A program made the translations under genes and the position numbers. From the NCBI GenBank assembly GCA_026770025.1, contig JAMXDE010000008.1:310001-374000 (forward strand): a stretch of 64,000 nt of DNA. The letters run 5' to 3'. This stretch comes from Craspedostauros australis (Eukaryota; Bacillariophyta; Bacillariophyceae; Mastogloiales; Achnanthaceae). Under the pieces are notes generated by a model that searched no databases, was not told the origin of the DNA, and saw only the letters and a list, made by a program, of their open reading frames with translations. Below, piece after piece: positions 16,401 through 38,380 of this stretch (its first letter is position 1; the number at the start of each line of letters is the position of its first letter).

Positions 16401-17191
16401 TGTTGGCAAGTTCCGCTCTCGGTAACCTACGATCGTGGAAGATGGTATTGGTTGATAGTCGTTCGTTTGCTATTTCATTACGTTGGCACTCCGATACTCT
16501 CGGTGTCCGTTCGTTCTCTTGCCCGATGCTCTCGGCGCTTCAATCTGTTTCGTAGATTCGGTCTCCGACTATGAGTCGGTACGCGAGATCCTCTCTCGCT
16601 CCTCTCTGTATTCTCTCTCTCTCTCTCAACATCGTGTGCTCGTGCTACACGATGCTTCGTGTTCGATGCGTACTCCGCATTCGACACTCTGTTCATTCAG
16701 TACTGGCTTCTACTCCATGAGTACTTACCATTTGAAGTTCACCTTCAGTATCCATGATCTTCATGGGTCATCGTATCTTCGCCTCCTGCTCTGACTTGGA
16801 GACAGCTGTCGACGTGGTGACATGTTGACATCCTGTCGACGTCAGTAGGCGTCCTTCTGCTCTCCAGATGTCACGTTCCATTGGTGATGCAGTAGTCTGT
16901 CAGATGATATCGTCATCTGAGGTTTAGTTGGGAAGTACCTCGAGATTCTCTTGGTACCATTGATGCATGGACGGACGATTTTCTGATTCTTCCAGAAATC
17001 GTTATTTGCAAATTTCCTCCAGAAATCTTGCCCCTTTTTGTGTGTTCCATTTCCCCTGTAATTCTGACGAATCACAGCATACTATCGACACGAGTATAGT
17101 TATACCGTCCAAGTGCGTATGAGAGAATAGCGGGTGAACGATGCACATATACACGTACATCTTGATATATACTCACATGTACATCTCGACA
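16401..17191 (-). repeat. Copia 3' LTR (minus orientation)
   Basis: Partner of 23537-24327. It contains an internal TC repeat near 16613 and a CTGTCGACGT-type inverted motif near 16805-16845. Confidence 0.93.
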
Positions 17192-17199
17192 CCCTTCCT
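17192..17199 (-). promoter_or_regulatory. Copia polypurine tract candidate
   Basis: In element orientation the purine run AGGAAGGG directly abuts the 3' LTR, where plus-strand DNA synthesis is primed in LTR retroelements. Confidence 0.55.
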
Positions 17200-17211
17200 G
17201 TGTGCATTCGG

Positions 17212-20200
17212 TCATTCGAATGTTCTCGATGTGTCAAGGTACGACTTCTCATGTTCACGTTGCAAGTCGGCCTTGATGTTCTTGGTGAATCCGTCGCTTG
17301 TGTTCTGCTCGGATTTGACGAAAATGATTTCGATGGTTTTGTTGATTACCATGTTCCTCACGTAGTGATGGCGCACGTCGATGTGCCGCGATCGTTGGGA
17401 TGTTGATGGGTTCTTGGCGATGAAGATCGCCCCGATGTTGTCCACGCGGACCTTGATCGGTGTCTTCACTGGGACGCCCACACTTTCGAGTAGCTGCATG
17501 ACGAAGAAGATCTCCTTTGCCGCTTCGGAAAGGGCAACGTATTCTGCTTCGGATGAGCTGAGTGTGACGGCCTTCTGTGCCTTGGATCGCCAAAGGATTG
17601 GTACCTTGCACAGGTATAGGATGAATCCCCCTACGCTGATTCTTGTATTCTTGTCTCCTGCATATTCGCTATCGCAGAAGAGCTCCATGTCCCAGCCGTC
17701 GTCATCTGGACGCGCTGGATGGATCTTCAATCCATAGTCCTTTGTATCGATCACATACTTGATGATCCGATACATCTCCTTCATTGCAGCCTTGGTGGGC
17801 CCGATCAATACCTTGGAGAGTTCCCTCACAGGGTTCGCGATATCTGGTCGCGAGTGCTTGATGAGGAAGAGTAGCATACCGACGCCTCGGCGGTATTCGG
17901 CATGTTCTTCCGGTCCGACCTTCTGCAGTCCGTTATCTTCGGATGGTCGTACGATGATTTGACCCGGGGTTCCCGGTGTCCCATAACGTTGCATCTTCTC
18001 AACTTTGGCTCCGAATTCCTCGATGAGGTGTCGGATGAGATGTGGTTGACGCAATGTCGCTCTAGTCTTGTCATGGTTCAATTCGATGTTGCAGCTGAGG
18101 TAGTCTCCGAGTCCGCGCTCGATTGTCACCTTGAATTTGCTGCCTTGGATGTCCTTCAGGAATGTCTCCAGTGCCTTGGAGTCTCCGCAACAGAAGCAAT
18201 CGTCCACGTAGATGGCCACGATCATGCTTCCTTCGTTCGTCTTCCTGTAGAACAGGCACGGGTCTGCTGCGCTCTGTTCGAAGTTGATATTCTTGAGGGT
18301 CGATACCAACATCTTGAACCATTGCCTGGCGCTCTGCACAAGTCCGTAGATTGGCTTGTGTAGGGTCAGGGCTTCGTCTGGTTGATGATCCATCCCATTG
18401 GGACAGTTCATGTAGATCTCCTCATCGAGGTCTCCATGTAGGAATGCCGTTACGACATCGACGAGTGCGCAGTCCATCTTCTTGATTAGCATGATCACCA
18501 TCATGACCCGATAGGTCACGTCATGGATGACGGGTGAGTAATGCTCTTGGAAGTCTACTCCTGCAACTTGTGAATAGCCACATGCAACGAGCCGTGCTCG
18601 ATGTGTGCCGTCACGCTTCAGCTTGAAGACCCATTTGCACTTGCAGCATCTGCGGCCGCGTGGGATGGCGTCTCGTTTGATCTTGCTATACACCTTGCGT
18701 GTATCCATGGAGTCGAACTCCTTCTTGATGGCTGCTCGATATCCCTTCCGATGGATAGGATCTGGGTGATTGAAGGCTCCGTCGAACGTTGTAGGTTCGA
18801 TGTGCTTCTCTGGTTCCTTGTTCTCGTCCTGCATCGACAATCCGATGTCGATCGCTGGTGATTCGGTAATGATTGCATTCATTCCGTATAGTCCTGTTGT
18901 GCTATGATGAGTGATCTCGATCTCTTCATTTTCGTCTTCGATTTCTTCATCATCTGTAGTTTCGTTGTTGGAATCGTCGATCATCTCGTCGCTGAGTTCG
19001 TCACTCGCCTCACTGGATGATGGATCGCTCTCATAGCCTTCTTCCTTTCGACCTCGTTCGTTGAAGTCTTCGAGCTCGCGCAGAGCTCTGGGAATACTCT
19101 TCCCTGTGGTTGGCTTGGGATTAGCTTCTCCCTTCCTGCCTCGTGCTTCGTGACGTCGGATCCTCTCCTTTCTAGCTATGTCACGCTTGTTTGGTTTACT
19201 CGGTGGAGATCTAGATGGTGTGTCATGTGTAGACCTTGCTGGTGTGTTCGGAGGAGTGACACCTGTCTCGTCATCGGCTTCGTCGCCGGAGGGTAGGATT
19301 TCGTCATCCTCATGATTGGATTCGCTCCGATCTTCCTCGTCATTCTGGATTAGTTGAGTCACTACTCCGTCGTCCTCATTATCCTCGTCATCACTGTCTG
19401 ATAGAATGTAGTACCTGTTGCTGTCAGCGAAAGATACTCTCTTCGCTTCCGATGTTTGACGCGTTGCCGTCCTTGGCGTTGCTCCCTTTCGTCCGATGGT
19501 TGTGAAGCCGTCTGCGTCCGTTGTTCCTGTTTCGTTGGATATGTTCGGTGCTGGTGCCCAACCACGGAACTGTCCGTATGATTGGTTGAGCCACTTGATG
19601 TCGCGTGAACAGATGAGTGACTTGGTCGATGGTCTGTACATGTTGTAGACCCCTGATGCATGTTGGTGTGCATATCCGATGAACACCATCTCTTCTCCTC
19701 TGTTCTTGAGTTTCGCGGTAATCCCGCCGTAGGTAGTCTTCACAACACCCACCTCTCCAAATGTGCGGAGCGCGTCCGCATATGGTGGATCGTTGCCGAA
19801 GAATTGTCGATGTGGTGACTTTCTCTGGTTCTTCGCTACGGTGATGTTGGCGATGGCGGTGGCAGTGCTAGCAGCTGCTGCCCACAGGCCATGCCTATAC
19901 TCTTCATCGAGCTGTGCTCCGTTGAGCATGGAGCGAATCTTGGTGTAGAGGTACGCGAACTTGCGTTCCACTCTTCCGTTCTGTTGCGGCGTGTTCGATG
20001 CCGTGTATTCGAATTTCACGTTGAGTCCTGCATCGATGAGAATATCCTCCGTGGATTTGTTCTCTCCGCTGTTGTCACCTCGGAAGATGATCTGTTGGTC
20101 ACCAGTCTGTGACTTGATCGTCTGGATGAATCGTTTGATGTATCCTGGTTGATCACTCTTGTTCTTGAGAAAGAAACTCCAGCAGTGATCCGTGCAGTCG

Positions 20201-23200
20201 TCCACGATCAGGGTCCAGTAGCGTTTATCTCCGAAGCTTATGTGTTTAGTGTAACTAATGTCAATGAAGAACCGTTCGCCGCGGCGAGTAGCTCTTGGAA
20301 TAGTTGCCTTCGGAATATTCTTCACTCTTGCGTTCGCGACCGCGCAGTCACGACACACCGGCATCTCGCCGATGATTTTCCATCCGTATTGAGCGGCCGT
20401 CCGCTTCATGGTCTCGAGTGGCGCGTGGCCGAGCATTCGGTGCAAGTTCACCGCGCTGATCTCCTTGGATGGATTCTTGACGATGGCTGTGCAAGCCTTG
20501 TCGTCGTCTGTTGGCATGATGGGATGCATCTGCACTCCCGTGATGAATCCGTTGGATGTGGGGAAGACTCGATCGAACACGATCTTCGTTCCGGATCCGT
20601 TGATGATGTCCATCAGAATGCCGTTGTTACCAAGCTGGTAACCGTTGTACAGAGCCTTGTTCGTGGAGAAAAGGTTCACCGCCATCTTGGGTGTGTACTT
20701 CACATCATCGAGCCGGATGACGTGGCCAGTGTTGTCTCGCTGTTTGACTTTCAAGCGAATGGATCCCATCTTGGGAGAGTCCAGCTTCGTGCTGTCTCCC
20801 ACTTGGACGAAGGACTTGATGTGCCGCACGTTGAAGAGAGCGGCGTCCGAGTTGACGATGTGACACGAAGCTCCGCTATCGGCGAGCCAGGTGTCTTTGT
20901 TGACCTTGTCCTTGTACTTGGTGCTCAGTTCGTGGAGTTGCTCCACAGCTGCCGCAGCTATCTCGTCGTCGAAGCTGCCGTCGTCGTTGTCTTCGTGGAC
21001 TCCATCTTCGTTGTATGGATGATGATGGTCTCCGTCATCCATGTCGTCGGGTAGTTGCGCGTAGTCCGATGGAATCGTAGTGTTCCGATGAGATCCTGTG
21101 GCTGGATCGTATGGGTAGACGCGTGATCGCTCTCGCAAGAGCACGCGCATGCATCCTCCAAGGATGTAATGCAGATCCGTATCTGGGATCGTTTCCGAGT
21201 CGTTCCCTTCCAGTATGCGGTTGACGATGATTGCATTGGCGAGGATCTCTTCGATTGAGTCGAAGTGCTCGGATAGGATGGATCCCATCATGTTCACCCA
21301 TATTGGCATGAGTGCTCCTCGTGTCGTTCCTGGGAATACTCGCATTCCCGCTTCCATCACGGCGTCAAAGATGAGCTGCTTTTGGATTATCAATGCTGTT
21401 GCTGTTGCATTCGGGATGGTGCTGTGACGGAGGAGGTAGTCGACGCTATTGGGATTCTCAATATCCGGGAAGTCGATATTCGATGGATAGACGACACGCT
21501 CGTTTGGATTGAAGCTGTCGTCTGGATGATTGCCGTCCTCGGATTCGTCGCTGTCATCCTCGTCGAAGATGCCCGATCTGTTGTTCCCCGCCGCTGGAGG
21601 AGGCGGCGCCGCGGCGCGGCGCGTTTCGCCTTGATTGATGAAGGTTCCCGTTCTCTCGTATCTCCCAGCTTGAGGAGGAGGCAACTCGTCACGGTTCGCC
21701 TCGTCGTCTTCATCTGCGCCGTCCTCGTCGGCGTCGTCGTCGTCGTCATCGCTCATGGCCTCTTCGATGTCGCTATCGTTGGCCTCGTCCATCTCAGCTT
21801 CGTCGCCGTATGAACCGATCAGGTCGTGCGCGTTGAAGCAGCATTCGTAGCTCACTTCGCGTCTTGGATCCACCTCGTGGATGATTGGCTCCTCACTGAG
21901 CCACTCCGGGATGATCTCATCATCCTGCACTTCGTCGTCACGCCCGACGTATTCGAAGTTATCGAAGAAGGAGTCTTCGATGTAGTCGTCGGACACCAAC
22001 ATGCAGAGCGGCATGTCCTTTGCAGAGAGTACCATCTCGTGCCCGCTCTTGTCGTGTCCTTCCGTAGCCGCGTTGGCTTGTTCGTTGTTCTTCTTCTCGT
22101 TGAACTTCTTCTTTCGGCACTCCGCCTCACGATGTCCGAAGATGCCACAGTAGTTGCACTTGCCCTTGAAGCCGCTTCCCTTGTTGCGCTTTCCGTTCAT
22201 CTTGTTGTTGTTGTTGTTGTTTTTCTTGTTGTTCGGTTTCTTGCGTTCTGGGCAATCGGCGGATCTATGGCCATACACGCCACAGTTGTGGCAAGTACCC
22301 TTGAAGTTACCGGTGCTTGTGAAGCCGGTGTCGTTGCTCTTCGTGTTGCTGTCTTGGAAGTCGTCGACGTATGCCTTGCCTCCTCTGTGGGTGGCGTATG
22401 CAGTACGGAGTACTCCTCTGATCGCGTTGATGGTAACCAGTTCCGGATTGAACGTGAGTTGGTGTTGGAAGTTCACGACGTGGGTTTTGTATTCCACGCT
22501 CACCGTGCTGAGGATCTGCATGATCATTTCCTCGTCTGTAATCTCGTACTTGACATCGTGGAGACGCGATCGTAGACTCTCGAGTTGCGTGATGTAGATG
22601 TCGGGGTCCGTGTCTCTCTTCATCTTTTCGTTGTTGAATTGGCGCTTGAGTTTGATCTTCGTTACTGCGTCGGATGGTCGGAACTTCTCCGCGAGAACGT
22701 TCCACGCTCCGTGTGCGTCTCCTTCGGGGTAGTCGACGGAGATGCATTGGTTGATGTACTGGATGGCTTGCTTGCCCTTTCCTTTTTCTGCATCCATCAT
22801 GAGGATCAGATCGCTGAAGCAATCGCATCCCAGCTCGTAGATCTCCTCCATCGCTTCCTTGTCTTCATCGGCGGCTGCCGCGATCTCGCTCACTGTTGGC
22901 ACCTTGGTCTTGCCCAACATCACGTCTCTCGTCTTCTGTGCACGAGCGTATGCCTTCGCTTGGGACTCCCATGCGCTGTAGTCTTCCTGTTCACCGCTGA
23001 ACATCGGCGCCTTGATGCGTCGCTTGTTCACGTTGGCTGATGTCGCCATGTTGATTCGTTGTTTCGTCGTTGGTGCGCTCGCGCCCTTGATTTCCGTCTG
23101 TTTCTGTGTTGTCGATTCTTCGATTTTCGCCTGTTGTTGCGCGGAGATTGTTTTCGTCACAAATTCTCCTCCTGGTGGTGTCTCACTTTTCCCACCCTGT

Positions 23201-23454
23201 TTGGCTGTGCGAATGCTCTTCGTCACACCAGTCTCCTCTTGCTTGATCGCCTTGAGAATCCTCTTCTCCTTACGATGTAGTCTTGCAGACCGTTCTTCTT
23301 CGGTCTCGTCGATCGCGCTTGCGTCTGCGCTTGATAGGACAGTAGCCGCGGCTGCTTCCTTCTCTTCTCGTGGTGGAGTCTCACTCGCACCTTCTTCTCT
23401 CTTGATAGTCGGATTGGACAGAGGGATGTCTTTCAATTCCTCTTCCTCGCTCAT
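17212..23454 (-). CDS. Copia Gag-Pol polyprotein
   Basis: One frame of 2080 residues covers Gag and Pol, which drive reverse transcription and integration of the element. Residue positions are approximate. Gag lies at about 130-340. Two CCHC zinc knuckles follow near 386 (CHNCGVYGHRSADC) and 430 (CNYCGIFGHREAEC). An acidic linker leads to the protease (WLADSGASC, near 854), then a GAG-pre-integrase zinc motif near 1000. Integrase has Asp in FIDISY near 1066, Asp in RGDNSGEN near 1124 and Glu in NGRVERK near 1160, a DD35E layout. After another acidic linker comes reverse transcriptase with YVDD near 1748. RNase H ends the protein (CDSEYAG, SSSEAEY, KVRVDN, HIDVRHHYV). All catalytic motifs are intact and no frameshift separates Gag from Pol. 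The start Met heads an acidic N-terminus 83 bases inside the 5' LTR. Confidence 0.96.
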   Translation of the reverse strand: MSEEEELKDIPLSNPTIKREEGASETPPREEKEAAAATVLSSADASAIDETEEERSARLHRKEKRILKAIKQEETGVTKSIRTAKQGGKSETPPGGEFVTKTISAQQQAKIEESTTQKQTEIKGASAPTTKQRINMATSANVNKRRIKAPMFSGEQEDYSAWESQAKAYARAQKTRDVMLGKTKVPTVSEIAAAADEDKEAMEEIYELGCDCFSDLILMMDAEKGKGKQAIQYINQCISVDYPEGDAHGAWNVLAEKFRPSDAVTKIKLKRQFNNEKMKRDTDPDIYITQLESLRSRLHDVKYEITDEEMIMQILSTVSVEYKTHVVNFQHQLTFNPELVTINAIRGVLRTAYATHRGGKAYVDDFQDSNTKSNDTGFTSTGNFKGTCHNCGVYGHRSADCPERKKPNNKKNNNNNNKMNGKRNKGSGFKGKCNYCGIFGHREAECRKKKFNEKKNNEQANAATEGHDKSGHEMVLSAKDMPLCMLVSDDYIEDSFFDNFEYVGRDDEVQDDEIIPEWLSEEPIIHEVDPRREVSYECCFNAHDLIGSYGDEAEMDEANDSDIEEAMSDDDDDDADEDGADEDDEANRDELPPPQAGRYERTGTFINQGETRRAAAPPPPAAGNNRSGIFDEDDSDESEDGNHPDDSFNPNERVVYPSNIDFPDIENPNSVDYLLRHSTIPNATATALIIQKQLIFDAVMEAGMRVFPGTTRGALMPIWVNMMGSILSEHFDSIEEILANAIIVNRILEGNDSETIPDTDLHYILGGCMRVLLRERSRVYPYDPATGSHRNTTIPSDYAQLPDDMDDGDHHHPYNEDGVHEDNDDGSFDDEIAAAAVEQLHELSTKYKDKVNKDTWLADSGASCHIVNSDAALFNVRHIKSFVQVGDSTKLDSPKMGSIRLKVKQRDNTGHVIRLDDVKYTPKMAVNLFSTNKALYNGYQLGNNGILMDIINGSGTKIVFDRVFPTSNGFITGVQMHPIMPTDDDKACTAIVKNPSKEISAVNLHRMLGHAPLETMKRTAAQYGWKIIGEMPVCRDCAVANARVKNIPKATIPRATRRGERFFIDISYTKHISFGDKRYWTLIVDDCTDHCWSFFLKNKSDQPGYIKRFIQTIKSQTGDQQIIFRGDNSGENKSTEDILIDAGLNVKFEYTASNTPQQNGRVERKFAYLYTKIRSMLNGAQLDEEYRHGLWAAAASTATAIANITVAKNQRKSPHRQFFGNDPPYADALRTFGEVGVVKTTYGGITAKLKNRGEEMVFIGYAHQHASGVYNMYRPSTKSLICSRDIKWLNQSYGQFRGWAPAPNISNETGTTDADGFTTIGRKGATPRTATRQTSEAKRVSFADSNRYYILSDSDDEDNEDDGVVTQLIQNDEEDRSESNHEDDEILPSGDEADDETGVTPPNTPARSTHDTPSRSPPSKPNKRDIARKERIRRHEARGRKGEANPKPTTGKSIPRALRELEDFNERGRKEEGYESDPSSSEASDELSDEMIDDSNNETTDDEEIEDENEEIEITHHSTTGLYGMNAIITESPAIDIGLSMQDENKEPEKHIEPTTFDGAFNHPDPIHRKGYRAAIKKEFDSMDTRKVYSKIKRDAIPRGRRCCKCKWVFKLKRDGTHRARLVACGYSQVAGVDFQEHYSPVIHDVTYRVMMVIMLIKKMDCALVDVVTAFLHGDLDEEIYMNCPNGMDHQPDEALTLHKPIYGLVQSARQWFKMLVSTLKNINFEQSAADPCLFYRKTNEGSMIVAIYVDDCFCCGDSKALETFLKDIQGSKFKVTIERGLGDYLSCNIELNHDKTRATLRQPHLIRHLIEEFGAKVEKMQRYGTPGTPGQIIVRPSEDNGLQKVGPEEHAEYRRGVGMLLFLIKHSRPDIANPVRELSKVLIGPTKAAMKEMYRIIKYVIDTKDYGLKIHPARPDDDGWDMELFCDSEYAGDKNTRISVGGFILYLCKVPILWRSKAQKAVTLSSSEAEYVALSEAAKEIFFVMQLLESVGVPVKTPIKVRVDNIGAIFIAKNPSTSQRSRHIDVRHHYVRNMVINKTIEIIFVKSEQNTSDGFTKNIKADLQREHEKSYLDTSRTFE

Positions 23455-23536
23455 TCAGCCTGCTGCTCTTGAATGATGTTCGTCTTCCTCGCACGATACG
23501 ATTCGCGGGCTCGCCCTGATCTATCGTTTATAAACG

Positions 23537-24327
23537 TGTTGGCAAGTTCCGCTCTCGGTAACCTACGATCGTGGAAGATGGTATTGGTTGATAGTCGTTC
23601 GTTTGCTATTTCATTACGTTGGCACTCCGATACTCTCGGTGTCCGTTCGTTCTCTTGCCCGATGCTCTCGGCGCTTCAATCTGTTTCGTAGATTCGGTCT
23701 CCGACTATGAGTCGGTACGCGAGATCCTCTCTCGCTCCTCTCTGTATTCTCTCTCTCTCTCTCAACATCGTGTGCTCGTGCTACACGATGCTTCGTGTTC
23801 GATGCGTACTCCGCATTCGACACTCTGTTCATTCAGTACTGGCTTCTACTCCATGAGTACTTACCATTTGAAGTTCACCTTCAGTATCCATGATCTTCAT
23901 GGGTCATCGTATCTTCGCCTCCTGCTCTGACTTGGAGACAGCTGTCGACGTGGTGACATGTTGACATCCTGTCGACGTCAGTAGGCGTCCTTCTGCTCTC
24001 CAGATGTCACGTTCCATTGGTGATGCAGTAGTCTGTCAGATGATATCGTCATCTGAGGTTTAGTTGGGAAGTACCTCGAGATTCTCTTGGTACCATTGAT
24101 GCATGGACGGACGATTTTCTGATTCTTCCAGAAATCGTTATTTGCAAATTTCCTCCAGAAATCTTGCCCCTTTTTGTGTGTTCCATTTCCCCTGTAATTC
24201 TGACGAATCACAGCATACTATCGACACGAGTATAGTTATACCGTCCAAGTGCGTATGAGAGAATAGCGGGTGAACGATGCACATATACACGTACATCTTG
24301 ATATATACTCACATGTACATCTCGACA
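23537..24327 (-). repeat. Copia 5' LTR (minus orientation)
   Basis: 791 bases with the same sequence as 16401-17191, offset 7136. In element orientation it starts TGTCGAGATG and ends GCCAACA. It should contain the promoter. The bases just inside it form a CGTTTATAAACG palindrome; I cannot match a primer-binding site to a specific tRNA. Confidence 0.93.
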
Positions 24328-25860: not shown

Positions 25861-26235
25861 ATAGAGACTTCCTGAAACCCGAAACCAGTTTCCCGAAACG
25901 ACACGCACTGTGACTATCAATAACGTCTGATAGCAACGGCCCGAAATATGACCGACGTCACCGACCGTGAACTAATATTAGAATCAAGAGGGTCGTAAGC
26001 AAGACTAGAAAGGAAAACGTATTTTTCTAAATGGTTCCTGTGCTCCTTTTTCTCATTCATCCAACCGACCGTCACATTTTGTTCGTCACATCGGCATCGG
26101 CATCCCTGAGCTGTGCCCGTCTCATCTGTTTCATTCATCTGCGTCGGAGGCGTTGCCGTTGGGTTGTTGACTCGTTTATACCTCCAACCTTGCTGCATAC
26201 CTCCTCGTGTACATCATTGATCTTGTCCCTCCCAC

Positions 26236-27486
26236 ATGTACAGACACCATCCGATTGCAATGGGGAAGAGGACTTGGAACTGTCTTCCTGAGCGGGAAGC
26301 TTGCAAGCAGGCAAGGATCGCATTCATCACTTTCGCCGATGAGTTGCAGCAACTACAGCATGCCCAGGCCAACTCCAACGAACCCTTGTTCGATCAGTCT
26401 TTCCTGGATGAGAACTTCGATCTCGTCATCGAGCTCGGGCTTCATTTGCTCAACATGCAAATGCGCTACTACGCACCAATCGTGCCGCCCTCGAATCGCC
26501 AGAAAGCGCCAATCCGAATCGAACATCTTTCGGAGATGCAGGCCATCACCCACTTTCGCTTCCGAAAGTGTTCCCTCCAAAGCATGCTGGGATGCCTTTG
26601 GCCCAAGTTCGAGGAAGTGTCTGGCGCAACATCCTCCGAGGCCATCACCTGCCAATATGGATACAGTGTGCCCTTCGAAACAGGCATGCTCTACATGTTG
26701 TATCGCCTGGCGCATCGGGGCACTCTGGGTGACATGGAGGTTGTCTTCGGAGTCGGGATTTCTAAATTATCCGCTGTGATTCTTACCTTCTGCGGCCATT
26801 TCCACGACATCGCCCGTCCCTACTTCGATAATATACAGACATTTGCGCATCGTTTCGAGATGTATGCTGACTACGTCGAGAGAGCAACTGATGGGATCGT
26901 GGACAACGTCGTCGGCTTCATCGATGGAACGTTGCGAAAAACGTGTCGCCCACACATCCATCAGGAGTTCGCATACTCCGGGCACAAGCGATGTCACGGC
27001 ATCAAATATCAAGGAGTGTCGGCTCCAGATGGATTGATGATGCACTTCTACGGACCCATCGCTGGGAATCGCCATGATGGTTTCATGCTGAAGGAGAGCC
27101 GAGTCGAACGGCAAATGGAAGACATCATGCCATTGGATGGCCCAAACAAAATCTACCGCCTGTACGGGGATCCAGCGTATGCCAACCGTGTGTATGTGTT
27201 CGGTGGTTTCAGCAATGTCGTTCGCGGATCACCTGAAGCTATCGTCAACAGGGAGATGTCTGCGGTGCGCATCTGCGTCGAGTGGCAGTTCAAGGAAATC
27301 GTGAAGCTCTTCCCTTTGTTGGATGTAACCAAGCTGATGCGCATCTACGGCAGTCCACTCACGCATATGTACTACACTGCTGCGTTCTTCATGAATCTGC
27401 ACTGCACTGTGTATGGTAATCAACAGTCTGCAAGGTACGATTTGAACAAGATGAGTATGGAGGAGTACCTCCTCCTCGTGCCATAG
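26236..27486 (+). CDS. PIF/Harbinger transposase (DDE_Tnp_4)
   Basis: This 416-residue protein carries the DDE nuclease of PIF/Harbinger transposons, which cuts and joins the element ends in the nucleus with help from a Myb-like partner. The catalytic triad reads D230 in GFIDGTLR, D312 in YGDPAYA and E349 in RICVEWQF. GHKRCHGIKYQG and GPIAGNRHD between the first two Asp residues are family blocks. The N-terminal 130 residues are helical and probably bind DNA. An alternative start at Met9 (26260) is possible. The frame is intact, so the enzyme may still work, but its probable partner on the other strand has a premature stop. Confidence 0.9.
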   Translation: MYRHHPIAMGKRTWNCLPEREACKQARIAFITFADELQQLQHAQANSNEPLFDQSFLDENFDLVIELGLHLLNMQMRYYAPIVPPSNRQKAPIRIEHLSEMQAITHFRFRKCSLQSMLGCLWPKFEEVSGATSSEAITCQYGYSVPFETGMLYMLYRLAHRGTLGDMEVVFGVGISKLSAVILTFCGHFHDIARPYFDNIQTFAHRFEMYADYVERATDGIVDNVVGFIDGTLRKTCRPHIHQEFAYSGHKRCHGIKYQGVSAPDGLMMHFYGPIAGNRHDGFMLKESRVERQMEDIMPLDGPNKIYRLYGDPAYANRVYVFGGFSNVVRGSPEAIVNREMSAVRICVEWQFKEIVKLFPLLDVTKLMRIYGSPLTHMYYTAAFFMNLHCTVYGNQQSARYDLNKMSMEEYLLLVP

Positions 27487-29661: not shown

Positions 29662-30102
29662 GGGGAACACGGTAATTTGTCCACTCACGACTCCATGAGC
29701 TCGTGATTGAGATGAATCGAGTCGTGCCTGACAATGTAGTCCCTGTCTGCCGTTGAAGTTGCGCGCCGGGCATGCCTGATTCCAGAGCTTCGCCCTTGAC
29801 CTGGGCGATTCGCAATCTTGTGATTGGTTGGTGGTAAGGTTGGCTTGTGCAAACGAGTATCATTTTCGTGTCGTTTGGCGAACGGGCGTGGTGCCCAACA
29901 CGAGCTTTCGAGAACTACGACATGTCGCATGCTGTCAATTCGGACAGATGTGTTCTTCCTTTTTGGATAACTCACGATTTCGTGTCACATACACATAATG
30001 TGCTAGCTATTTCGATTATATCTGAAATGTCCCACAACCAATGCAGCATTGTGTGTAAAAATATACGTAGCACCAGTACCAAATTTAGCTTGTTTGAGTT
30101 TG

Positions 30103-30262
30103 TGCGTCGGGGGACAGAGAGGGGACACAGAGGAGACATGATGGAACATAGGGAGAACAGGGGGGTACACAGGGGGGTACACAGGGGGTACACAGGGGGG
30201 ACAGAGGGGGGACACAGGGGGGACAGAGGGGGGACATTTTAGAGGTGACACAGGGGGGACAT
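30103..30262. repeat. G-rich minisatellite in left arm
   Basis: Irregular units of GGGGGG(ACA/TACACA), such as GGGGGGTACACA and GGGGGGACACA. Repeated G runs on one strand could form G-quadruplexes. The mirror copy at about 37773-37935 has an extra 12-base unit. Confidence 0.8.
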
Positions 30263-30439
30263 TTTGGAGGTGATCCAGCAGTGGCGTTTTGTCCTGTTGT
30301 GTTGCTTGGGTTTTGTTCCGCGGGAGCCTTTCGCCACGCAGCTGTGTGCGTGGTAACAGACAAGCACGATAATAGCGAGTGGACATGCATCTTTCTTTTC
30401 ATCCACATCCACATCCACATCCGCATCCACATCCGCATC

Positions 30440-30483
30440 CACACCCACACCCACACCCACACCCACACCCACACCCACACCCA
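30440..30483. repeat. (CACACC)n hexanucleotide repeat
   Basis: About seven units flanked by CATCCA/CATCCG variants. The mirror copy, (GTGGGT)n, is at about 37527-37590 and is slightly longer. Confidence 0.85.
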
Positions 30484-30504
30484 TGCCCACATCCACATCC
30501 ACAT

Positions 30505-31610
30505 TCATCGATCAGCATCCATCCATTCGCATTCACATCCATTGATCAGCATCCAACGATCAGCATCCATCCATTCACATTCACATCCATCGATCAGCAT
30601 CCAACAATCCGCATCCATCCATCGATCAGCATCCAACAATCCGCATCCATCCATCCATCCGCATCCATCGATCTGCATCCATCGACCCGCATCCATCGAT
30701 CACCATCGATCTGTAGCCATCAATCTGTAGCCATCAATCATCATCCATCGATCTGCATCCTTCCGCATCCGCATTCATTGATCAGCATCCATCTGCATTC
30801 GCATCCATCGATCTGTAGCCATCGATCAGCATCTGCATTCACATCCATTGATCAGCATCCATCCGCATTCGCATTCACATCCATCGATCAGCATCCATCC
30901 GCATTCACATCCATCGATCTGTAGCCATCGATCAGCATCCATCAATCAGCATTCACATCCATCAATCAGCATTCACATCCATCGATCAGCATCCATCGAT
31001 CAGCATCCATCCGCATCTGTATCCGCATTCACATCCATCGATCAGCATCCATCCGCATCTGTATCCGCATTCACATCCATCGATCAGCATTCACATCCAT
31101 CGATCAGCATCCATCCGCATTCGCATCCATCGATCAGCATCCGTATCTGCATTCACATCCATTGATCAGCATTCATCCGCATCCATCAATCAGCGTCCAT
31201 CCGCATCTGCATTCACATCCATCGATCAGCACCCATCCGCATCCGTATCCGCATTCACATCCATCGATCAGCATTCATCCGCATCCATCAATCAGCATCC
31301 ATCTGCATTCACATCCATCAATCAGCACCCCTCTGCATCTGTATCCGCATTCACATCCATCGACCAGCATCCATCTGCATTCGCATCTATCGATCAGCAT
31401 CCATCGATCAGCATCCATTGATCAGCATCCATCCGCATCCACATTCATCGATCAGCATCCATCCGCATTCGCATCCATCGGCATCCAGGTCAGCATCCAT
31501 CCGCATCCGCATTCACATCCTTCGATCCGCATCCGCATTCACATCCTTCGATCCGCATCCATCTGCATTCGCAGTCACATCCATTGATCTGCATCCATCC
31601 ATCAGCATCT
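30505..31610. repeat. CATCCATCGATCAG minisatellite, left arm
   Basis: About 1.1 kb of shuffled short units (CATCCATC, GATCAGCATC, CGCATTCACATC). Open frames through it encode Ser-Ile-His-Pro repeats and are artefacts of the repeat. Confidence 0.9.
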
Positions 31611-31683
31611 GCATCCATACCCTTCACTGTGGCCATTGCTGTCAACTTTGGCAAAATCTCTGCTGCAGCCCAGCATTTCCGCA

Positions 31684-32649
31684 ATGACAGACAAGCCAGC
31701 CAATCACACGTCTGTTGCAAATGACTTGAATGCAGATGTGCCATTCGATGGCATTATCTATTGCGATGACGAAGTCATGCTTCGTGGCTTGCACCTCATT
31801 GGGTTCTCTGAACACCAACTTCGTCGGGTGCAAACAAACGAACCCAACCGTCTACGTTTCGTTGGCATCTACGGATGCACGCCACAGGTGTGCAACAAGG
31901 TTTGGGAGGATCTGCAGTCACCTACAGATGAAGCCCATCGGATCCCAATCAACCTGCTGTCCTTGGATGCCATGCTCATGGCCTTCCATTTCCTCAAGCG
32001 ATATCCAACAGAGGCGGAACAAGAGCCACTGTTCCACCTCTCGCGGAAGACGGCAAGGCAGAAGATCTGGTTCTACTTGGACTGCATTCAAGCCCTCAAG
32101 ACCACCAAGATTCGATGGCCAGATCACAACTATGGCAGCGACAAATGGGTGATCTCAGTGGATGGAACCCATTGTGGGATCCAAGAGCCACGCCACCATC
32201 GATACCCACAAGACAAGGCATACTACTCCCACAAGTTCCACAAGGCTGGAATCAACTATGAGTTGGGCCTGGCCATCTCAGAGTCACAGCTGATCTGGAT
32301 GAATGGTCCCTTCAAGGCTGGGATGTCAGACAGAAAGATTTTCGTTGAGTGTGGATTGAAAGCAAAATTGGAGGAATCAAACAAAATGGGAATTGCCGAC
32401 AATGGTTACACAGGCTACCCACTCCTGTTGAGCACTCCAAATGCTCTTGACCCATTCGACGTCGCCATCTTTAAAACTAGAGCCAGAATGAGACAAGAGG
32501 CATTCAACAGAATGGTCAAGTCATTCGATTCTGTCTCCGGCCGATTTCGGCATGGCGAAGCCAAAATCAAGGTGTGCTTTGAAGCCATCTGTGTCATTTG
32601 CCAATACAAGCTTGAGCTCGAATCACCCTTGTTTGATGTATATGTATAA
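31684..32649 (+). CDS. Element 4 transposase, Harbinger-type DDE_Tnp_4
   Basis: This 321-residue protein (from ATG 31684; 337 if ATG 31636 is used) has the nuclease signature of the DGTHC branch of PIF/Harbinger transposases: D160 in ISVDGTHCGI, D239 in GIADNGYTG and E272 in MRQEAFNRM. YYSHKFHKAGINYELG and WMNGPF also match the family pattern as I remember it. It should cut the element ends in the nucleus. It is intact and clearly different from the transposase at 26236-27486, so the two elements are not copies. I prefer the downstream start because the first 16 codons run out of the arm sequence. Confidence 0.9.
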   Translation: MTDKPANHTSVANDLNADVPFDGIIYCDDEVMLRGLHLIGFSEHQLRRVQTNEPNRLRFVGIYGCTPQVCNKVWEDLQSPTDEAHRIPINLLSLDAMLMAFHFLKRYPTEAEQEPLFHLSRKTARQKIWFYLDCIQALKTTKIRWPDHNYGSDKWVISVDGTHCGIQEPRHHRYPQDKAYYSHKFHKAGINYELGLAISESQLIWMNGPFKAGMSDRKIFVECGLKAKLEESNKMGIADNGYTGYPLLLSTPNALDPFDVAIFKTRARMRQEAFNRMVKSFDSVSGRFRHGEAKIKVCFEAICVICQYKLELESPLFDVYV

Positions 32650-32738
32650 GACTAATCACTAGATAAGAAGTACAATGTATGTTCTGATCACTAAGTTATG
32701 GCATCTACATGTTGTGTTGGGTGGGCTGCTCCTTTTGT

Positions 32739-34662
32739 TCAGAGACTTCCCGAGTCGTCACTGCTTGAAGATTCCAAGGGGCGCTTGAGATGCCCTGTTG
32801 GATCATCCATGATGGCATCACCTGCACGTTCAGGGATGCTTGCAGCGGCAGCTGAGCTGCTTGGATCATGTGTTGGGATGTTCGGAGTCCACAGCAGGGG
32901 GTCAGCTGGTGTCTCTGGGAACTCGAGGCCCGTGCCATGGTTGCCGGGGCCTGCAGATGGATGTTTTGCTGCATTTGCAGCAGCGTCGGCCCTTTGGAGG
33001 GCGATCAAGCCCATGCGGCGCGCGGTCTCTGCAGCTTCTGCATTCGACTTGACGTGGTCTGGCACACCTCTGCCTCCCCAGCCACCTCCATGTGGTGAAT
33101 GATCTGAGGGAAAACGAGACAGCATGAAACAGCAATCGAGAAGTATTGATCGCAGTGTGAGAAACATTTTTGTGATTGGGCATGAAGCTTGTTCGACATG
33201 CATTCGTTGGACAATTGATCATGCACTGCAGCTTCAAGTCACAAGAGCAGTCGCAAGTGCACTCACGTGTCAATACCCACCATCTTCGTCATCGGAGTCT
33301 TCGAACAAGAGCTTCTTCTTCTCCATCTTGTGGAAAGCACCCATTTTGTGGCAGCCTTCATCGACGCGGGCCACATCCCAGCACACAAAAGTGTCGATGC
33401 TCTCCTTGCCCTTGCTGGTTTGCTTCACCTGGAGGCGACTCTTCACAACCAAGGGAAGGGCTGGGATGAGCGCCTCGTCCTGCCGGTCGAAGTCTTGGTG
33501 AATGTCCTCGACCGAGAGGCTGTGTCCTTCAGGGAAAGAAAGGAGAACATGGCGAGAGAGGCCAGTGATGGGGCCTCCGCGGCTCATTCTGTTTTGCACG
33601 TCCAAGCGCAATTCGTCAGTGGCGGTCATGCTGTCGTTGCCAAGAGCGTGAAAAAGTTCGTCGCGGTGCCTGAAGGTGACAAAGTCCCAACGCGGCAGCT
33701 TGACGAGAATTTCGTTGGCTGAGGTGATTCGCGCCTCGTAGTGGTCGTAGTCGGGCAAAATCTTGATCCAGCGCTTGTCTGCGCGTACGACGATTTTGTA
33801 CGCAGGCCAGTACTCGTTCTTTCCGACTCCTTTGACTGATTGGATGCGACAGATGGTGAGCTCCCCGTTGTTGGTGGGGTTGTTGGTGTCGACTTCGACG
33901 AAAGCTGAAAAAAAAAAACGAACAAACGTGGTGTGAGCGCACAGTGAATTGCTCGCGCCTTGCCCAGCAAACACAATCAGAAAACAAGTTCACAAAAAAC
34001 ACACATGCAGCTTCCCTTCATTTTTACTTACTGGTCGGATTGCCGGTACTCTTGGCGATGCCCTTGGCCTTGTCATGCAACATGTTTGATGCTGACGCTG
34101 TGTCCTTTCTCTTCTTTGTTGGTGTTCCTGGTGTTGCTTGCGTGATGACGAACTTGGGTGGTACGAAAGCGCCCTTCTCTACTGATGGGGGGATGTCCGT
34201 GCTGCCTGTCCCAACCTGGTCTCCGACTTCCTTCTTGACTTCCGATGCTTGGAACTGTGCCAAGTCAACTTGGTAGACTCGTTCTGCAAACTCTCTGAAC
34301 AGTGTGGTGTTGAACTCTGCGCTCCACTTGGCTGCTCGTTTCTGCACTGCGCGGCGGAGGTCTGTGCCAGGTGCTCCGTAAACTTCGGGGCGACTGTCAC
34401 AGATTTGCTTCAAAGCCGAAGTTCCCAAACGCTGCTTGTATCGTGTGATGCCTCCTCTCCTCAAGATGTCTTCTGCCAGCTGCTTGTAAGTTGCGCGGCG
34501 CGGACCAGAAGAGCCAATGCTATCAGCGACGCTTACCGTGTCTGATTGATAGCCAACGCTGAGTGGTGTGTAGTTTGGTGTGTTTGATTTGGTTGGAGTG
34601 AACCGGAGACCGCGTGGGGTTTTTGGTGGTGGGCTGAGTGGTGGAAGCCTGCTTGTGCTCAT
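32739..34662 (-). CDS. Three-exon gene of unknown function in element 4 (539 aa)
   Basis: Exons are 34662-34032, 33904-33281 and 33103-32739 (631, 624 and 365 bases), summing to 540 codons with the stop. Donors are GTAAGT (34031-34026) and GTGGGT (33280-33275). The acceptors are a T-rich run ending CAG (33907-33905) and CCCTCAG (33106-33104). The introns are 127 and 177 bases. The Met start is followed by a Pro/Thr-rich basic segment, a helical block (YKQLAEDILRRGGITRYKQR), then an alpha/beta region (YWPAYKIVVRADKRWIKILP) and an acidic, Ser-rich tail. I recognise no domain. Its position between the inverted arms beside a transposase suggests a DNA-binding or accessory role in transposition, as an inference. 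Phase agreement at both junctions supports the model. Confidence 0.75.
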
Positions 34663-35181
34663 GCTTGGTTGAATTGTGAGCTGAGAGTGCAGCCTTATGA
34701 TCATGGCAATGAGATGAAAGGAAGGCCACAACAGCACACTCAACCATTCTCCCATCACACATCACCTACAAACTACACTCATCACATCTGTGCAAGCAAG
34801 AAGACAGCAGCATTTCGCGAGTGAATATTTTGCAGCTGCGACGTTCCCAAAATTTCTCCTGGATCTGGCTCGCAAACCCACCAAATGCCAGAAGGCCTAC
34901 AGAACACACCATACAGAAATACATTCCCAATACTGTCTGTATCTGTAGGGTATCTATGTTTGTTTGAGCATGTGCTACAGTTCGAACCTGAGCATGTGCT
35001 TCAGTTCAAACCTTGCTCATTTAGCTTGAGTGAACAAGTGTTGTGTCATGAGACTGTAGCTTTCGAATTTTGGGAATGTTCGGAAACTCAGCCACAGGCA
35101 GCCATAGAGCATTGATGGGTTGGACAGAAGAAACCAGGAAGTGATCGTTGACTTGATTCACATCGAGCTATGTTATGTTGG
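34663..35181. other. Spacer between two minus-strand genes of element 4
   Basis: Probable promoter and 5' leader of the three-exon gene and 3' end of the 224-residue gene. It includes a short near-repeat, TGAGCATGTGCT(A/T)CAGTTC, near 34968-34999. No other gene is seen. Confidence 0.4.
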
Positions 35182-35856
35182 TTATGGTCTACTTGTTTGA
35201 TTTGTTGGTTGCTGCATATTCAATGCATCGAACTCAGAAATGAAGCCGCCATCAACCTCGTTGTCATCTGTTTGGTTGCCATGTTGCTGAATTGGACTCC
35301 GATCTCTTTGATGTGTCTGGATTGCTCCTCTCTGTTCTTTGCTTCTTCGCTTGGCCTCTCGTTTCTCTGCTTTGTCGGTTAAGTAGTTATTGAATTTTAT
35401 CCGTCTTTCCTCCTGATAGACATGGAGGTAGAAGGTTCGATAAGGGATCAGTTGGTATGATTCTCTTGAGTGGAACAATGCAGGCAGTGGCATGGTGTTG
35501 TGCTTTCCAAGTGCCATATCCTCTTTCAAATGCTTCTGCATATTTGACCTGAACCATTGCGGTTCATTTCGGAAGTTCACGACAAGTGGATCATGATTTG
35601 CTGCATAGTTTGCAAAAGCTGCTTGATCAATTTTCTTTCGGTTGAGCGATGTCGCAACCTGTTTGCGCAGCCCACTGAGCCTTGCAGGGAAGTTCTTGTA
35701 GTTGTATTCGCTGAGCTCCGGAATGGATTGGAAGATGTCCTTGTTTGGCATCTCGTCAGTTGCTTGCAAAGGTACAGAGCCATCGAGGATGGCTTGCCTG
35801 AGCAGCTCCTTGGCCTTGCTATCTCGCCATGGCACAGAGGGCTCGTTGAATGCCAT
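35182..35856 (-). CDS. Element 4 accessory protein of unknown function (224 aa)
   Basis: A single intact frame opens MAFNEPSVPWRDSKAKELLR. The pattern (W-x-D-S-x-A-K-x-L-L, then YNYKNFPARLSGLRKQV, later FHSRESYQLIPYRTFYLHVY) resembles an uncharacterised family I associate with algal genomes, often near Harbinger-like genes. That link is from memory and unverified. A Lys/Arg-rich helix (EKREAKRRSKEQR) near residue 175 could bind nucleic acid or act as a nuclear signal. The tail is rich in Gln and Asn. It starts immediately inside the right inverted arm and is transcribed away from it, so the arm probably contains its promoter. Confidence 0.75.
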   Translation of the reverse strand: MAFNEPSVPWRDSKAKELLRQAILDGSVPLQATDEMPNKDIFQSIPELSEYNYKNFPARLSGLRKQVATSLNRKKIDQAAFANYAANHDPLVVNFRNEPQWFRSNMQKHLKEDMALGKHNTMPLPALFHSRESYQLIPYRTFYLHVYQEERRIKFNNYLTDKAEKREAKRRSKEQRGAIQTHQRDRSPIQQHGNQTDDNEVDGGFISEFDALNMQQPTNQTSRP

Positions 35857-35879
35857 TGTGACCTTGGTGTTGGCTGTGA

Positions 35880-36830
35880 ATGCGGATGCGGATGCTGATT
35901 GATGGCTGTAGATGCTGACCTGAATGCTGATGGATAGATGCGGATCGATGGATGTGAATGCTGATTGACGGATGTGAATTTGAATGGATGGATGCTGATC
36001 GATGGATGCTGATCGATAGATGCGAATGCAGATGGATGCTGGTCGATGGATGTGAATGCGGATACAGATGCAGAGGGGTGCTGATTGATGGATGTGAATG
36101 CAAATGGATGGATGCTGATTGATGGATGCGGATGAATGCTGATCAATGGATGTGAATGCGGATACGGATGCTGATCGATGGATGCGAATGCGGATGGATG
36201 CTGGTCGATGGATGTGAATGCTGATCGATGGATGTGAATGCGGATACAGATGCGGATGGATGCTGATCGATGGATGTGAATGCGGATACAGATGCGGATG
36301 GATGCTGATTGATGGATGCTGATCGATGGATGTGAATGCTGATTGATGGATGCTGATCGATGGCTACAGATCGATGGATGCTGGTCGATGGATGTGAATG
36401 CGGATGGATGGATGCTGATCGATGGCTACAGATCGATGGATGTGAATGCGGATGGATGCTGATCGATGGATGTGAATGCGAATGCGGATGGATGCTGATC
36501 AATGGATGTGAATGCAGATGCTGATCGATGGCTACAGATCGATGGATGCGAATGCAGATGGATGCTGATCAATGAATGCGGATGCGGAAGGATGCAGATC
36601 GATGGATGATGATTGATGGCTACAGATTGATGGCTACAGATCGATGGTGATCGATGGATGCGGGTCGATGGATGCAGATCGATGGATGCGGATGGATGGA
36701 TGGATGCGGATTGTTGGATGCTGATCGATGGATGGATGCGGATTGTTGGATGCTGATCGATGGATGTGAATGTGAATGGATGGATGCTGATCGTTGGATG
36801 CTGATCAATGGATGTGAATGCGAATGGATG
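35880..36830. repeat. Minisatellite, right arm
   Basis: Reverse-complement counterpart of the left-arm minisatellite (GATGGATGCTGATCGATGGA units), about 0.95 kb. Its last bases, GGATG at 36826-36830, are the left target duplication of the 662-base insertion. Confidence 0.9.
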
Positions 36831-37036
36831 TATTAGAGCACTATCGAAAAATCACGAGGGGAGAGCAAAAGCAAAGTACCATGCCGGGATTCGAACCCGG
36901 AACCTCAGTTAGAATTACTGGTGCTCTACCGTTGAGCTACAGGCGATGCGATTGCTGATCCGAACACAAGTGAAATTTATAGATAGTGGGGGCTACGGGA
37001 GTAACGTACTTAGCACTATTCGATTTTGTGCTGATA
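36831..37036 (-). repeat. Mini-element terminal direct repeat 1
   Basis: 206 bases identical, as far as I compared, to 37287-37492. Its two ends are imperfect inverted copies (TATTAGAGCAC against TATCAGCAC). Confidence 0.88.
36877..36946 (-). tRNA. Degenerate tRNA-like sequence in terminal repeat 1
   Basis: On the minus strand it has a canonical A box (TAGCTCAACGG), D-arm closure (GCTC/GAGC), T arm CCGGG-TTCGAAT-CCCGG and B box GGTTCGAATCC. The anticodon stem has only four good pairs, position 33 is A instead of U, and only four of seven acceptor pairs form. No amino acid can be assigned and function as a tRNA is unlikely. It would serve as an internal RNA polymerase III promoter. Confidence 0.65.
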
Positions 37037-37286
37037 CTCCCCTACGCTACGACCGTGGACCACCTGCTCAAGAGCACTATGACGGAAAGTTGTTATCTCC
37101 CGCGTCTCCCCATCTCGGGGCACTCTCATTGTTGGGTGGCTAATACTGCCAGACGAAGTGGGAGTGCTGCCGTAGCAGACAAGTGTGAGACTGGGTCGAA
37201 ATCCGGTGATCGCAACGCGCCCACGAAGGCGTGTTGTGCAAGGTTGTCCTAACTCAGCGATGTAGAACTAGCTGCGACTGTTAATC

Positions 37287-37492
37287 TATTAGAGCACTAT
37301 CGAAAAATCACGAGGGGAGAGCAAAAGCAAAGTACCATGCCGGGATTCGAACCCGGAACCTCAGTTAGAATTACTGGTGCTCTACCGTTGAGCTACAGGC
37401 GATGCGATTGCTGATCCGAACACAAGTGAAATTTATAGATAGTGGGGGCTACGGGAGTAACGTACTTAGCACTATTCGATTTTGTGCTGATA
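37287..37492 (-). repeat. Mini-element terminal direct repeat 2
   Basis: Second copy, offset 456 bases, followed by the right GGATG duplication and then arm minisatellite. Confidence 0.88.
37333..37402 (-). tRNA. Degenerate tRNA-like sequence in terminal repeat 2
   Basis: Same sequence as 36877-36946, carried by the second terminal repeat, with intact A and B boxes. Confidence 0.65.
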
Positions 37493-37772
37493 GGATGGAT
37501 GCTGATCGATGAATGTGGATGTGGATGTGGGCATGGGTGTGGGTGTGGGTGTGGGTGTGGGTGTGGGTGTGGGTGTGGGTGTGGGTGTGGATGCGGATGT
37601 GGATGCGGATGTGGATGTGGATGTGGATGAAAAGAAAGATGCATGTCCACTCGCTATTATCGTGCTTGTCTGTTACCACGCACACAGCTGCGTGGCGAAA
37701 GGCTCCCGCGGAACAAAACCCAAGCAACACAACAGGACAAAACGCCACTGCTGGATCACCTCCAAAATGTCC

Positions 37773-37935
37773 CCCCTGTGTCACCTCTAAAATGTCCCCC
37801 CTCTGTCCCCCCTCTGTCCCCCCTGTGTCCCCCCTGTGTCCCCCCTGTGTACCCCCCTGTGTACCCCCCTGTGTACCCCCCTGTTCTCCCTATGTTCCAT
37901 CATGTCTCCTCTGTGTCCCCTCTCTGTCCCCCGAC
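37773..37935. repeat. C-rich (G-rich on minus) minisatellite in right arm
   Basis: Mirror of 30103-30262, with CCCCCCTGT(A/C) units and about 12 more bases than the left copy. Confidence 0.8.
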
Positions 37936-38380
37936 GCACAAACTCAAACAAGCTAAATTTGGTACTGGTGCTACGTATATTTTTACACACAATGCTGCAT
38001 TGGTTGTGGGACATTTCAGATATAATCGAAATAGCTAGCACATTATGTGTATGTGACACGAAATCGTGAGTTATCCAAAAAGGAAGAACACATCTGTCCG
38101 AATTGACAGCATGCGACATGTCGTAGTTCTCGAAAGCTCGTGTTGGGCACCACGCCCGTTCGCCAAACGACACGAAAATGATACTCGTTTGCACAAGCCA
38201 ACCTTACCACCAACCAATCACAAGATTGCGAATCGCCCAGGTCAAGGGCGAAGCTCTGGAATCAGGCATGCCCGGCGCGCAACTTCAACGGCAGACAGGG
38301 ACTACATTGTCAGGCACGACTCGATTCATCTCAATCACGAGCTCATGGAGTCGTGAGTGGACAAATTACCGTGTTCCCCT

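Follow-up and report, generated by a model that had tools for sequence, protein, structure and literature searches.

A probable Helenus-type TRIM with a tRNA-like sequence in each LTR, and its candidate Copia helpers, in the diatom Craspedostauros australis

Helenus is the name given to TRIMs with tRNA-like LTRs from fungi, animals and Selaginella (Kojima 2024; PMC10886601). According to the main text of that paper, the reported length of Helenus elements ranges from 311 to 1263 bp, and in most, not all, of the families the tRNA-like part is unlikely to be a functional tRNA. Fungal Helenus elements are characterized there by 5-bp target-site duplications (TSDs), mostly by an anticodon-loop primer-binding site (PBS; Asn-GTT in one branch) and by Copia as the probable helper, the direct helper match being one between two species (PMC10886601). 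In Cassandra, a 5S-bearing plant TRIM, the LTRs contain terminators and transcription with tandem read-through has been reported; its PBS is TGGTATCAGAGC and its helper is called unknown in the text of PMC7215508.

In the window analyzed here, i.e., the whole stretch of 64,000 nt of C. australis DNA (C6:310001-374000), a 662-nt element composed of 206 + 250 + 206 nt was found (Table 1). A sequence-only reading of the same DNA had described direct repeats of 206 bases around a core of 250 bases, flanked by a GGATG duplication. Direct comparison within the window confirmed the repeats, which are identical at 206/206 nt, and GGATG is indeed found on either side of the element. With a length below 1 kb and a short non-coding core, the element has the size of a TRIM. 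Its sense strand is the minus strand. The repeat ends had been given as TATTAG/CTGATA, which is correct for the letters of the plus strand; the orientation has to be changed, because on the minus, sense strand the LTR reads TATCAG...CTAATA and TATTAG is its reversed 3' end. The core starts with the PBS and ends in the polypurine tract (PPT), both exactly at the LTR borders.

Table 1. Features of the 662-nt element and of its empty target site (positions in the window).
Feature	Position	Strand	Remarks
Target-site duplication GGATG, copy 1	36826..36830		
3' LTR, 206 nt, TATCAG...CTAATA	36831..37036	-	
TTTTT in 3' LTR, possible Pol III terminator	36847..36851	-	
TTTTT, 5' LTR counterpart	37303-37307	-	
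TTTT in LTRs	36867-36870 (3' LTR), 37323-37326 (5' LTR)	-	
tRNA-like sequence, 3' LTR	36882..36941	-	RF00005; A box 36929-36939, B box 36887-36897
TATAAAT at LTR 56, 3' LTR copy	36975..36981	-	
Polypurine tract GTAGGGGAG, adjoining 3' LTR	37037..37045	-	
250-nt core, no sense-strand T-runs of 4 or more	37037..37286	-	
Primer-binding site GATTAACAGTCGCA, against the tRNA-Asn(GTT) anticodon arm	37273..37286	-	complementarity
5' LTR, 206 nt, same as 3' LTR	37287..37492	-	
tRNA-like sequence, 5' LTR	37338..37397	-	RF00005; A box 37385-37395, B box 37343-37353
Target-site duplication GGATG, copy 2	37493..37497		
Empty target site CATCC in mirror arm	30520..30524		read on + strand

Like Helenus (TRIMp3), the element is short, has a PBS and a PPT and carries a tRNA-like sequence in both of its LTRs, and its 662 bp lie within the range reported for Helenus. 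Since these structural features match those of a kind already described (PMC10886601), the element does not represent a new class, and the earlier suggestion of an undescribed class is not supported. Unlike the hosts in Table 1 of PMC10886601, the host is a diatom; the main text of that paper makes no mention of diatoms, stramenopiles or oomycetes. A search of the literature, with most subscription papers and Repbase outside its scope, gave no tRNA-bearing TRIM from a diatom or stramenopile among the matches listed. The LTR ends are TA...TA (TA...CA or other in some copies), compared here with Helenus as presented in the main text of PMC10886601, and both TACA and TATA are contained in the LTR_retriever motif library as quoted in PMC8220671. 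The element resembles Cassandra in having a Pol III-type promoter sequence and T-run stops in the LTRs of a TRIM without coding capacity, and differs from it in that the promoter sequence is tRNA-like rather than 5S and the PBS is of the half-tRNA type instead of the one described in PMC7215508. No 5S rRNA was found in the LTRs; cmscan of the window yielded tRNA matches only (2/2), which rules out a Cassandra-type 5S promoter.

Of the two arms of a long inverted repeat, with arm pieces listed from 29662 to 38379, only the right one contains the element; the arms 30517-30975 and 36375-36833 are 99% complementary. This inverted repeat consists in part of GATG/GCTGATC-like degenerate tandem repeats. 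The single-target empty site proposed for the mirror arm was borne out, with a clean junction. When the element and one GGATG are taken out of the right arm, the match to the mirror arm continues across the junction, and the 220-column alignment contains 4 mismatches, all within the last 40 columns and away from the junction. As the left arm is uninterrupted and has a single copy of the target, insertion as one unit can be observed within the window. Arms that are long inverted repeats could exchange sequence, and the empty site could in principle reflect deletion of an element that was once present in both arms; such an event would, however, need to remove exactly the element and one copy of the TSD, while the junction is clean and copies at unrelated places show the same structure, and we consider it very improbable.

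A search of the 74.8-Mb genome assembly (90 contigs) with the LTR gave 40 scored matches of 135 candidates, and 21/21 scored matches, with 80-100% identity, were obtained with the core. With up to 2 mismatches allowed, the genome contains 74 matches to the first 24 nt of the LTR (reversed control, 0). Thirty of these 74 LTR starts lie 450-465 nt apart in pairs and represent 15 complete elements; a further pair is separated by 5,853 nt, its core being interrupted beside the PPT by a 5.4-kb insert. The insert in this split TRIM (C13:1591130-1597006) is flanked by GTA and is perhaps a DNA transposon. A scan of viral contigs with a 40-nt piece of the LTR gave 0 matches.

The best 30 LTR matches and the best 10 core matches were read with their flanks and represent 25 distinct insertions, a set that is biased to well-preserved elements because only the best matches were cut out. 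Perfect 5-bp TSDs were found around all 14 complete copies and all 10 solo copies, with 24 different duplications; the one remaining insertion is a truncated copy without a TSD. The genome check suggested with the sequence-only reading, namely a search for many copies, 5-base duplications and solo repeats, was therefore positive, with 24/24 complete and solo copies having a 5-bp TSD. Zero differences were found between the two LTRs within each of the 14 complete copies, while, relative to the copy in the window, other copies show as many as 5 substitutions in the aligned part of the LTR and as many as 14 in the core. Identical LTR pairs amid divergence between copies are the product that would be expected from reverse transcription of one template. 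The 3' ends of the LTRs deviate in 4/25 insertions (two TTTCA, one TATTA and one TCATG).

The same copies bear on the possibility, named in the sequence-only reading as one of its refuting cases, that two independent tRNA-SINE insertions flank a core by chance. SINEs move by non-LTR retroposition, and tRNA-derived SINEs (SINE2) share with this element a promoter with an A and a B box, which each repeat does contain; unlike SINE2, the TRIM has LTRs, a PBS, a PPT and constant 5-bp TSDs. Moreover, the same core of 250-251 nt is enclosed by mutually identical LTRs, with one outer TSD around the whole, in 14/14 complete copies, the PBS and PPT lie exactly at the LTR borders, and the mirror arm has a single clean empty site. 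The TSDs and the identical LTRs in 14/14 copies rule out the two-SINE reading for practical purposes, its remaining probability being negligible, and support the earlier proposal of a non-autonomous TRIM-like retroelement that carries a tRNA-like sequence in each LTR and was inserted as a unit.

The PBS, which begins at the first base of the core, is complementary at 14/14 positions to nt 27-40 (linear count) of the host tRNA-Asn(GTT), within the anticodon arm. Because the core starts with an exact complement of this stretch, priming would require a tRNA that has been cleaved in the anticodon stem. The tRNA-Asn(GTT) arm has 5 exact matches in the genome, and the 3 loci that were fetched were all called tRNA-Asn by ARAGORN (3/3). 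The PBS GATTAACAGTCGCA occurs at 293 sites in the genome (reversed control, 0), a handful of which are the tRNA genes themselves, and the PPT with the LTR start, GGGGAGTATYAGC, occurs at 168 sites (control, 2; approximately 4 expected by chance).

Further analysis of these signals used the first 100 places of each, out of 293 and 168, respectively. Among the listed PPT places on C1-C12, 56/65 have a listed PBS on the same strand within 7 kb upstream, compared to 3/65 and 4/65 in controls with a 20-kb shift and a strand flip. The spacing between PBS and PPT in these 56 cases is 243-245 nt in 8, which belong to the TRIM family, and 5.3-6.2 kb in the other 48. Among the listed PBS sites without a preceding TA, and outside those already read, the first 20 are all found directly after TAACA or TATCA (20/20). 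Non-canonical LTR ends are paralleled in the local Copia elements, by TA...CA, and TA precedes the same PBS (pattern WNNTA) at 65 places, including the 662-nt TRIM family and the L079 family.

L101, L102 and L103, three long elements with PBS and PPT that were chosen for their different LTR ends, were read. These contain open frames of 1,910 aa (L101), 1,830 aa (L102) and 1,839 aa (L103), each with an RVT_2 domain (3/3; E 6e-21 to 2e-25). At the border of PPT and LTR, GGGGAG is followed by TATTAGCGCA in L101, by TATTAGCACA in L102 and by TAATAACACA in L103; in L106, of which the ends only were read, GGGGAG is followed by TATCAGCACA, with the same ten LTR letters as in the 662-nt TRIM. The sequence that precedes the PBS is found again further downstream, as an LTR, in both L101 and L102; L103 was read only in part. 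The local Copia elements (L101, L102, L103 and L105/L106) therefore resemble the TRIM in their PBS, PPT and LTR start, and differ from it in an internal region of 5.3-6.2 kb, in the RVT_2 open frames of L101-L103 and in sampled LTR ends with CA. Larger relatives that share the termini, as anticipated in the sequence-only reading, do exist in that these RVT_2-bearing Copia elements share the 5' terminus of the LTR. Unlike in the fungal Helenus elements of PMC10886601, the probable helper is found in the same genome, with a shared PBS, PPT and LTR terminus, plus a chimera.

This chimera, L104 (C5:1700580-1701268), is old and consists of an L101-like Copia 5' LTR joined at the PBS to a TRIM core and 3' LTR. 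Its 5' LTR is 80.6% identical to that of L101 over 129 columns and 75.3% identical over 166 columns, and 30/66 substitutions relative to the window copy are C-to-T or G-to-A. Either template switching within a shared particle or an exchange of DNA at a later time may have given rise to L104. An Rfam analysis of 8 fetched pieces found no tRNA in the Copia pieces, the LTRs of which were partly read; the sole match was the TRIM-type LTR of L104. When the element was compared with L076-L080 and L101-L103 by BLAST, nothing better than E 0.28 was obtained beyond the matches at the PBS with the LTR end and short ones at the PPT.

A number of other candidates were considered as helpers. Among the best 150 of 1,493 RVT_2 candidates, 74 are located in the part of the genome for which PBS sites were listed, and only 1/74 has a same-strand PBS in the 8 kb upstream of it; the best-scoring RVT_2 clade was accordingly rejected as the helper. 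None of the other 76 was found near the 46 TA-preceded PBS sites, the sole sites that could be compared. The clade whose ORFs are approximately 2,450 aa long was also rejected, as a PBS on the same strand within 25 kb upstream was found for 3/59 matches, one of which is the query's own locus (59 of the 60 listed matches on C1-C12, among 150 listed). An RNase H match at C24:429764-430096 was listed with a 22,870-aa open frame, which is perhaps a masked run of N.

L079 (C1:1049800-1057200) is a Copia-derived element that is repeated at a spacing of 6,733 nt and has a tRNA-Asn PBS and the LTR end TATTA. A remnant resembling the tail of the Copia RNase H, ADMHTKPL, was recognized by eye. Its 2,075-aa ORF does not contain any Pfam family, and L079 was rejected as a helper since it is thereby itself non-autonomous; it appears to be a large non-autonomous element with a protein of its own. 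L080 has the PBS and is broken, and was rejected as an intact helper. The Copia element in the window (16401-23836) has terminal repeats (16401-16700 and 23537-23836) that are identical at 300/300 nt and a 2,080-aa open frame with gag and RVT_2; it was rejected because CGTTTATAAACG, not the tRNA-Asn PBS, stands at the primer site after the 5' repeat. The window also contains a 421-aa ORF with a DDE_Tnp_4 transposase domain (26221-27483) and an RCC1-like gene with a best match of 33% identity and no close relative.

As high-scoring RVT_2 copies rarely carry the PBS and L079 and L080 are not intact, the partner would belong to lower-scoring Copia lineages. At C11:884850, the PBS is preceded by TAATA, as in the TRIM, and the PPT GGGGAGTATTAGC is found 5.9 kb further on, at C11:878925. 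The long element between these positions is a candidate for the closest helper.

Each LTR contains an A box, TAGCTCAACGG, and a B box, GGTTCGAATCC, on the minus strand of both repeats. This bears out the earlier description of A and B boxes of a degenerate tRNA, and Rfam RF00005 matched each of the two repeats with 35.4 bits (gathering threshold, 29), spanning only model positions 6-65 of 71. No tRNA gene was reported by ARAGORN for the whole window under default settings or, under the standard code, for the LTR with flanks whether or not introns were allowed. At a 60% threshold, ARAGORN gave three poor structures for a 325-nt LTR piece, of which one lies at 131-216 of this piece and two are on the opposite strand; by eye, none of these follows the tRNA of the A and B boxes. 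Considering the partial RF00005 model and the absence of an ARAGORN gene at the normal threshold, the tRNA-like part is unlikely to be a functional tRNA. Comparison with 32 distinct tRNAs (35 loci, nuclear and organellar) identified tRNA-Arg(TCT) as the closest, with 53/71 positions; plastid tRNA-Arg also matched at 53, with a lower score. These values weakly suggest an origin from tRNA-Arg. A 10-kb piece of the 133-kb contig C90 (L072) was found to carry plastid psbV and dnaB. The PDB entries closest to the psbV product were 8IWH, 6JLU, 6J3Y, 7VD5 and 8J5K, the first five of 18; 8IWH, 6JLU and 8J5K are structures from diatoms (PMC10599620, PMC10710467). Diatoms are also the source of 6J3Y and 7VD5. 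The DnaB has the same sequence as an MMETSP transcript, followed by matches with 54-58% identity; the named species among the 120 matches listed include a diatom (Naviculales sp., 55%) and a bacterium. By these matches the host is an alga with a plastid of the red type and most likely a diatom.

Pol III transcription of the element, directed by its tRNA-like A and B boxes, is moderately likely, and the promoter is the weakest step of the proposed mechanism. The order within the LTR is TATAAAT (56), A box (98), B box (140), TTTT (167) and TTTTT (186), so that in the 5' LTR both T-runs fall between the B box and the PBS. These T-runs would stop Pol III unless termination is leaky and would count against simple Pol III synthesis; because the T-run that could end the RNA in the 3' LTR also precedes the PBS in the 5' LTR, Pol III would have to read through the latter. 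If assumed to start at about LTR 88 and to end at the T-run in the 3' LTR, a putative Pol III RNA would have a length of approximately 559 nt, with a repeat of 103 nt. A tentative alternative, which we consider possible, if somewhat doubtful, is an ordinary TRIM in which the TATAAAT directs Pol II transcription and the tRNA-like part is a captured passenger or has another role (decoy or chromatin signal). It is consistent with the position of the TATAAAT, 42 nt before the A box, and with the T-run stops ahead of the PBS, which would leave a terminated Pol III transcript too short for replication. The B box, on the other hand, is unchanged in 25/25 LTRs and the A box in 24/25, which argues weakly against a passenger since only 14 other LTR variants were listed, 3 of them between the boxes. 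T-runs of at least 4 are absent from 16/16 cores examined, as Pol III transcription might favor, a depletion that is not significant (0.65 of shuffled cores are equally free of them).

The LTR-core-LTR structure, the 5-bp TSDs, the solo LTRs, the half-tRNA-Asn(GTT) PBS, the PPT and the signals in common with Copia can all be read from the DNA. Taken together, the element is very probably a recently active non-autonomous LTR retrotransposon of the Helenus type, a TRIM on the minus strand, for which we infer transcription, packaging, priming and integration as follows. The 5' LTR would give rise to the transcript, through its A and B boxes in the case of Pol III or through its TATAAAT in the case of Pol II, and the proteins of an L101/L102/L106-type Copia element would package this RNA. 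A tRNA-Asn cut in the anticodon stem would prime reverse transcription, after which the Copia integrase would accept the TAT(C/T)AGCAC terminus, make 5-bp staggered cuts and integrate the product. For its own copying, the element seems to use machinery that is supplied by the larger Copia elements of its genome.

With respect to PMC10886601, as far as its main text extends, the element adds a new lineage to the hosts of the Helenus kind, with an unusually complete helper case. We give an even chance to the fuller reading of a stramenopile Helenus-type TRIM that arose when a Copia-dependent element captured a tRNA-Arg-like promoter, independently of the Helenus elements of fungi, animals and plants, with TA...TA ends and with helper lineages intact in the same genome. 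Through this finding, a class of elements that was described only recently gains a major algal line among its hosts, and one genome is seen to bring together a parasite and several candidate helpers with open frames that are matched at the PBS, the PPT and the LTR terminus. It also calls for caution, as tRNA-like matches in such genomes may be LTRs of transposons. If independent capture and intact helpers hold true, the question of who mobilises a TRIM with a Pol III promoter would become directly testable.
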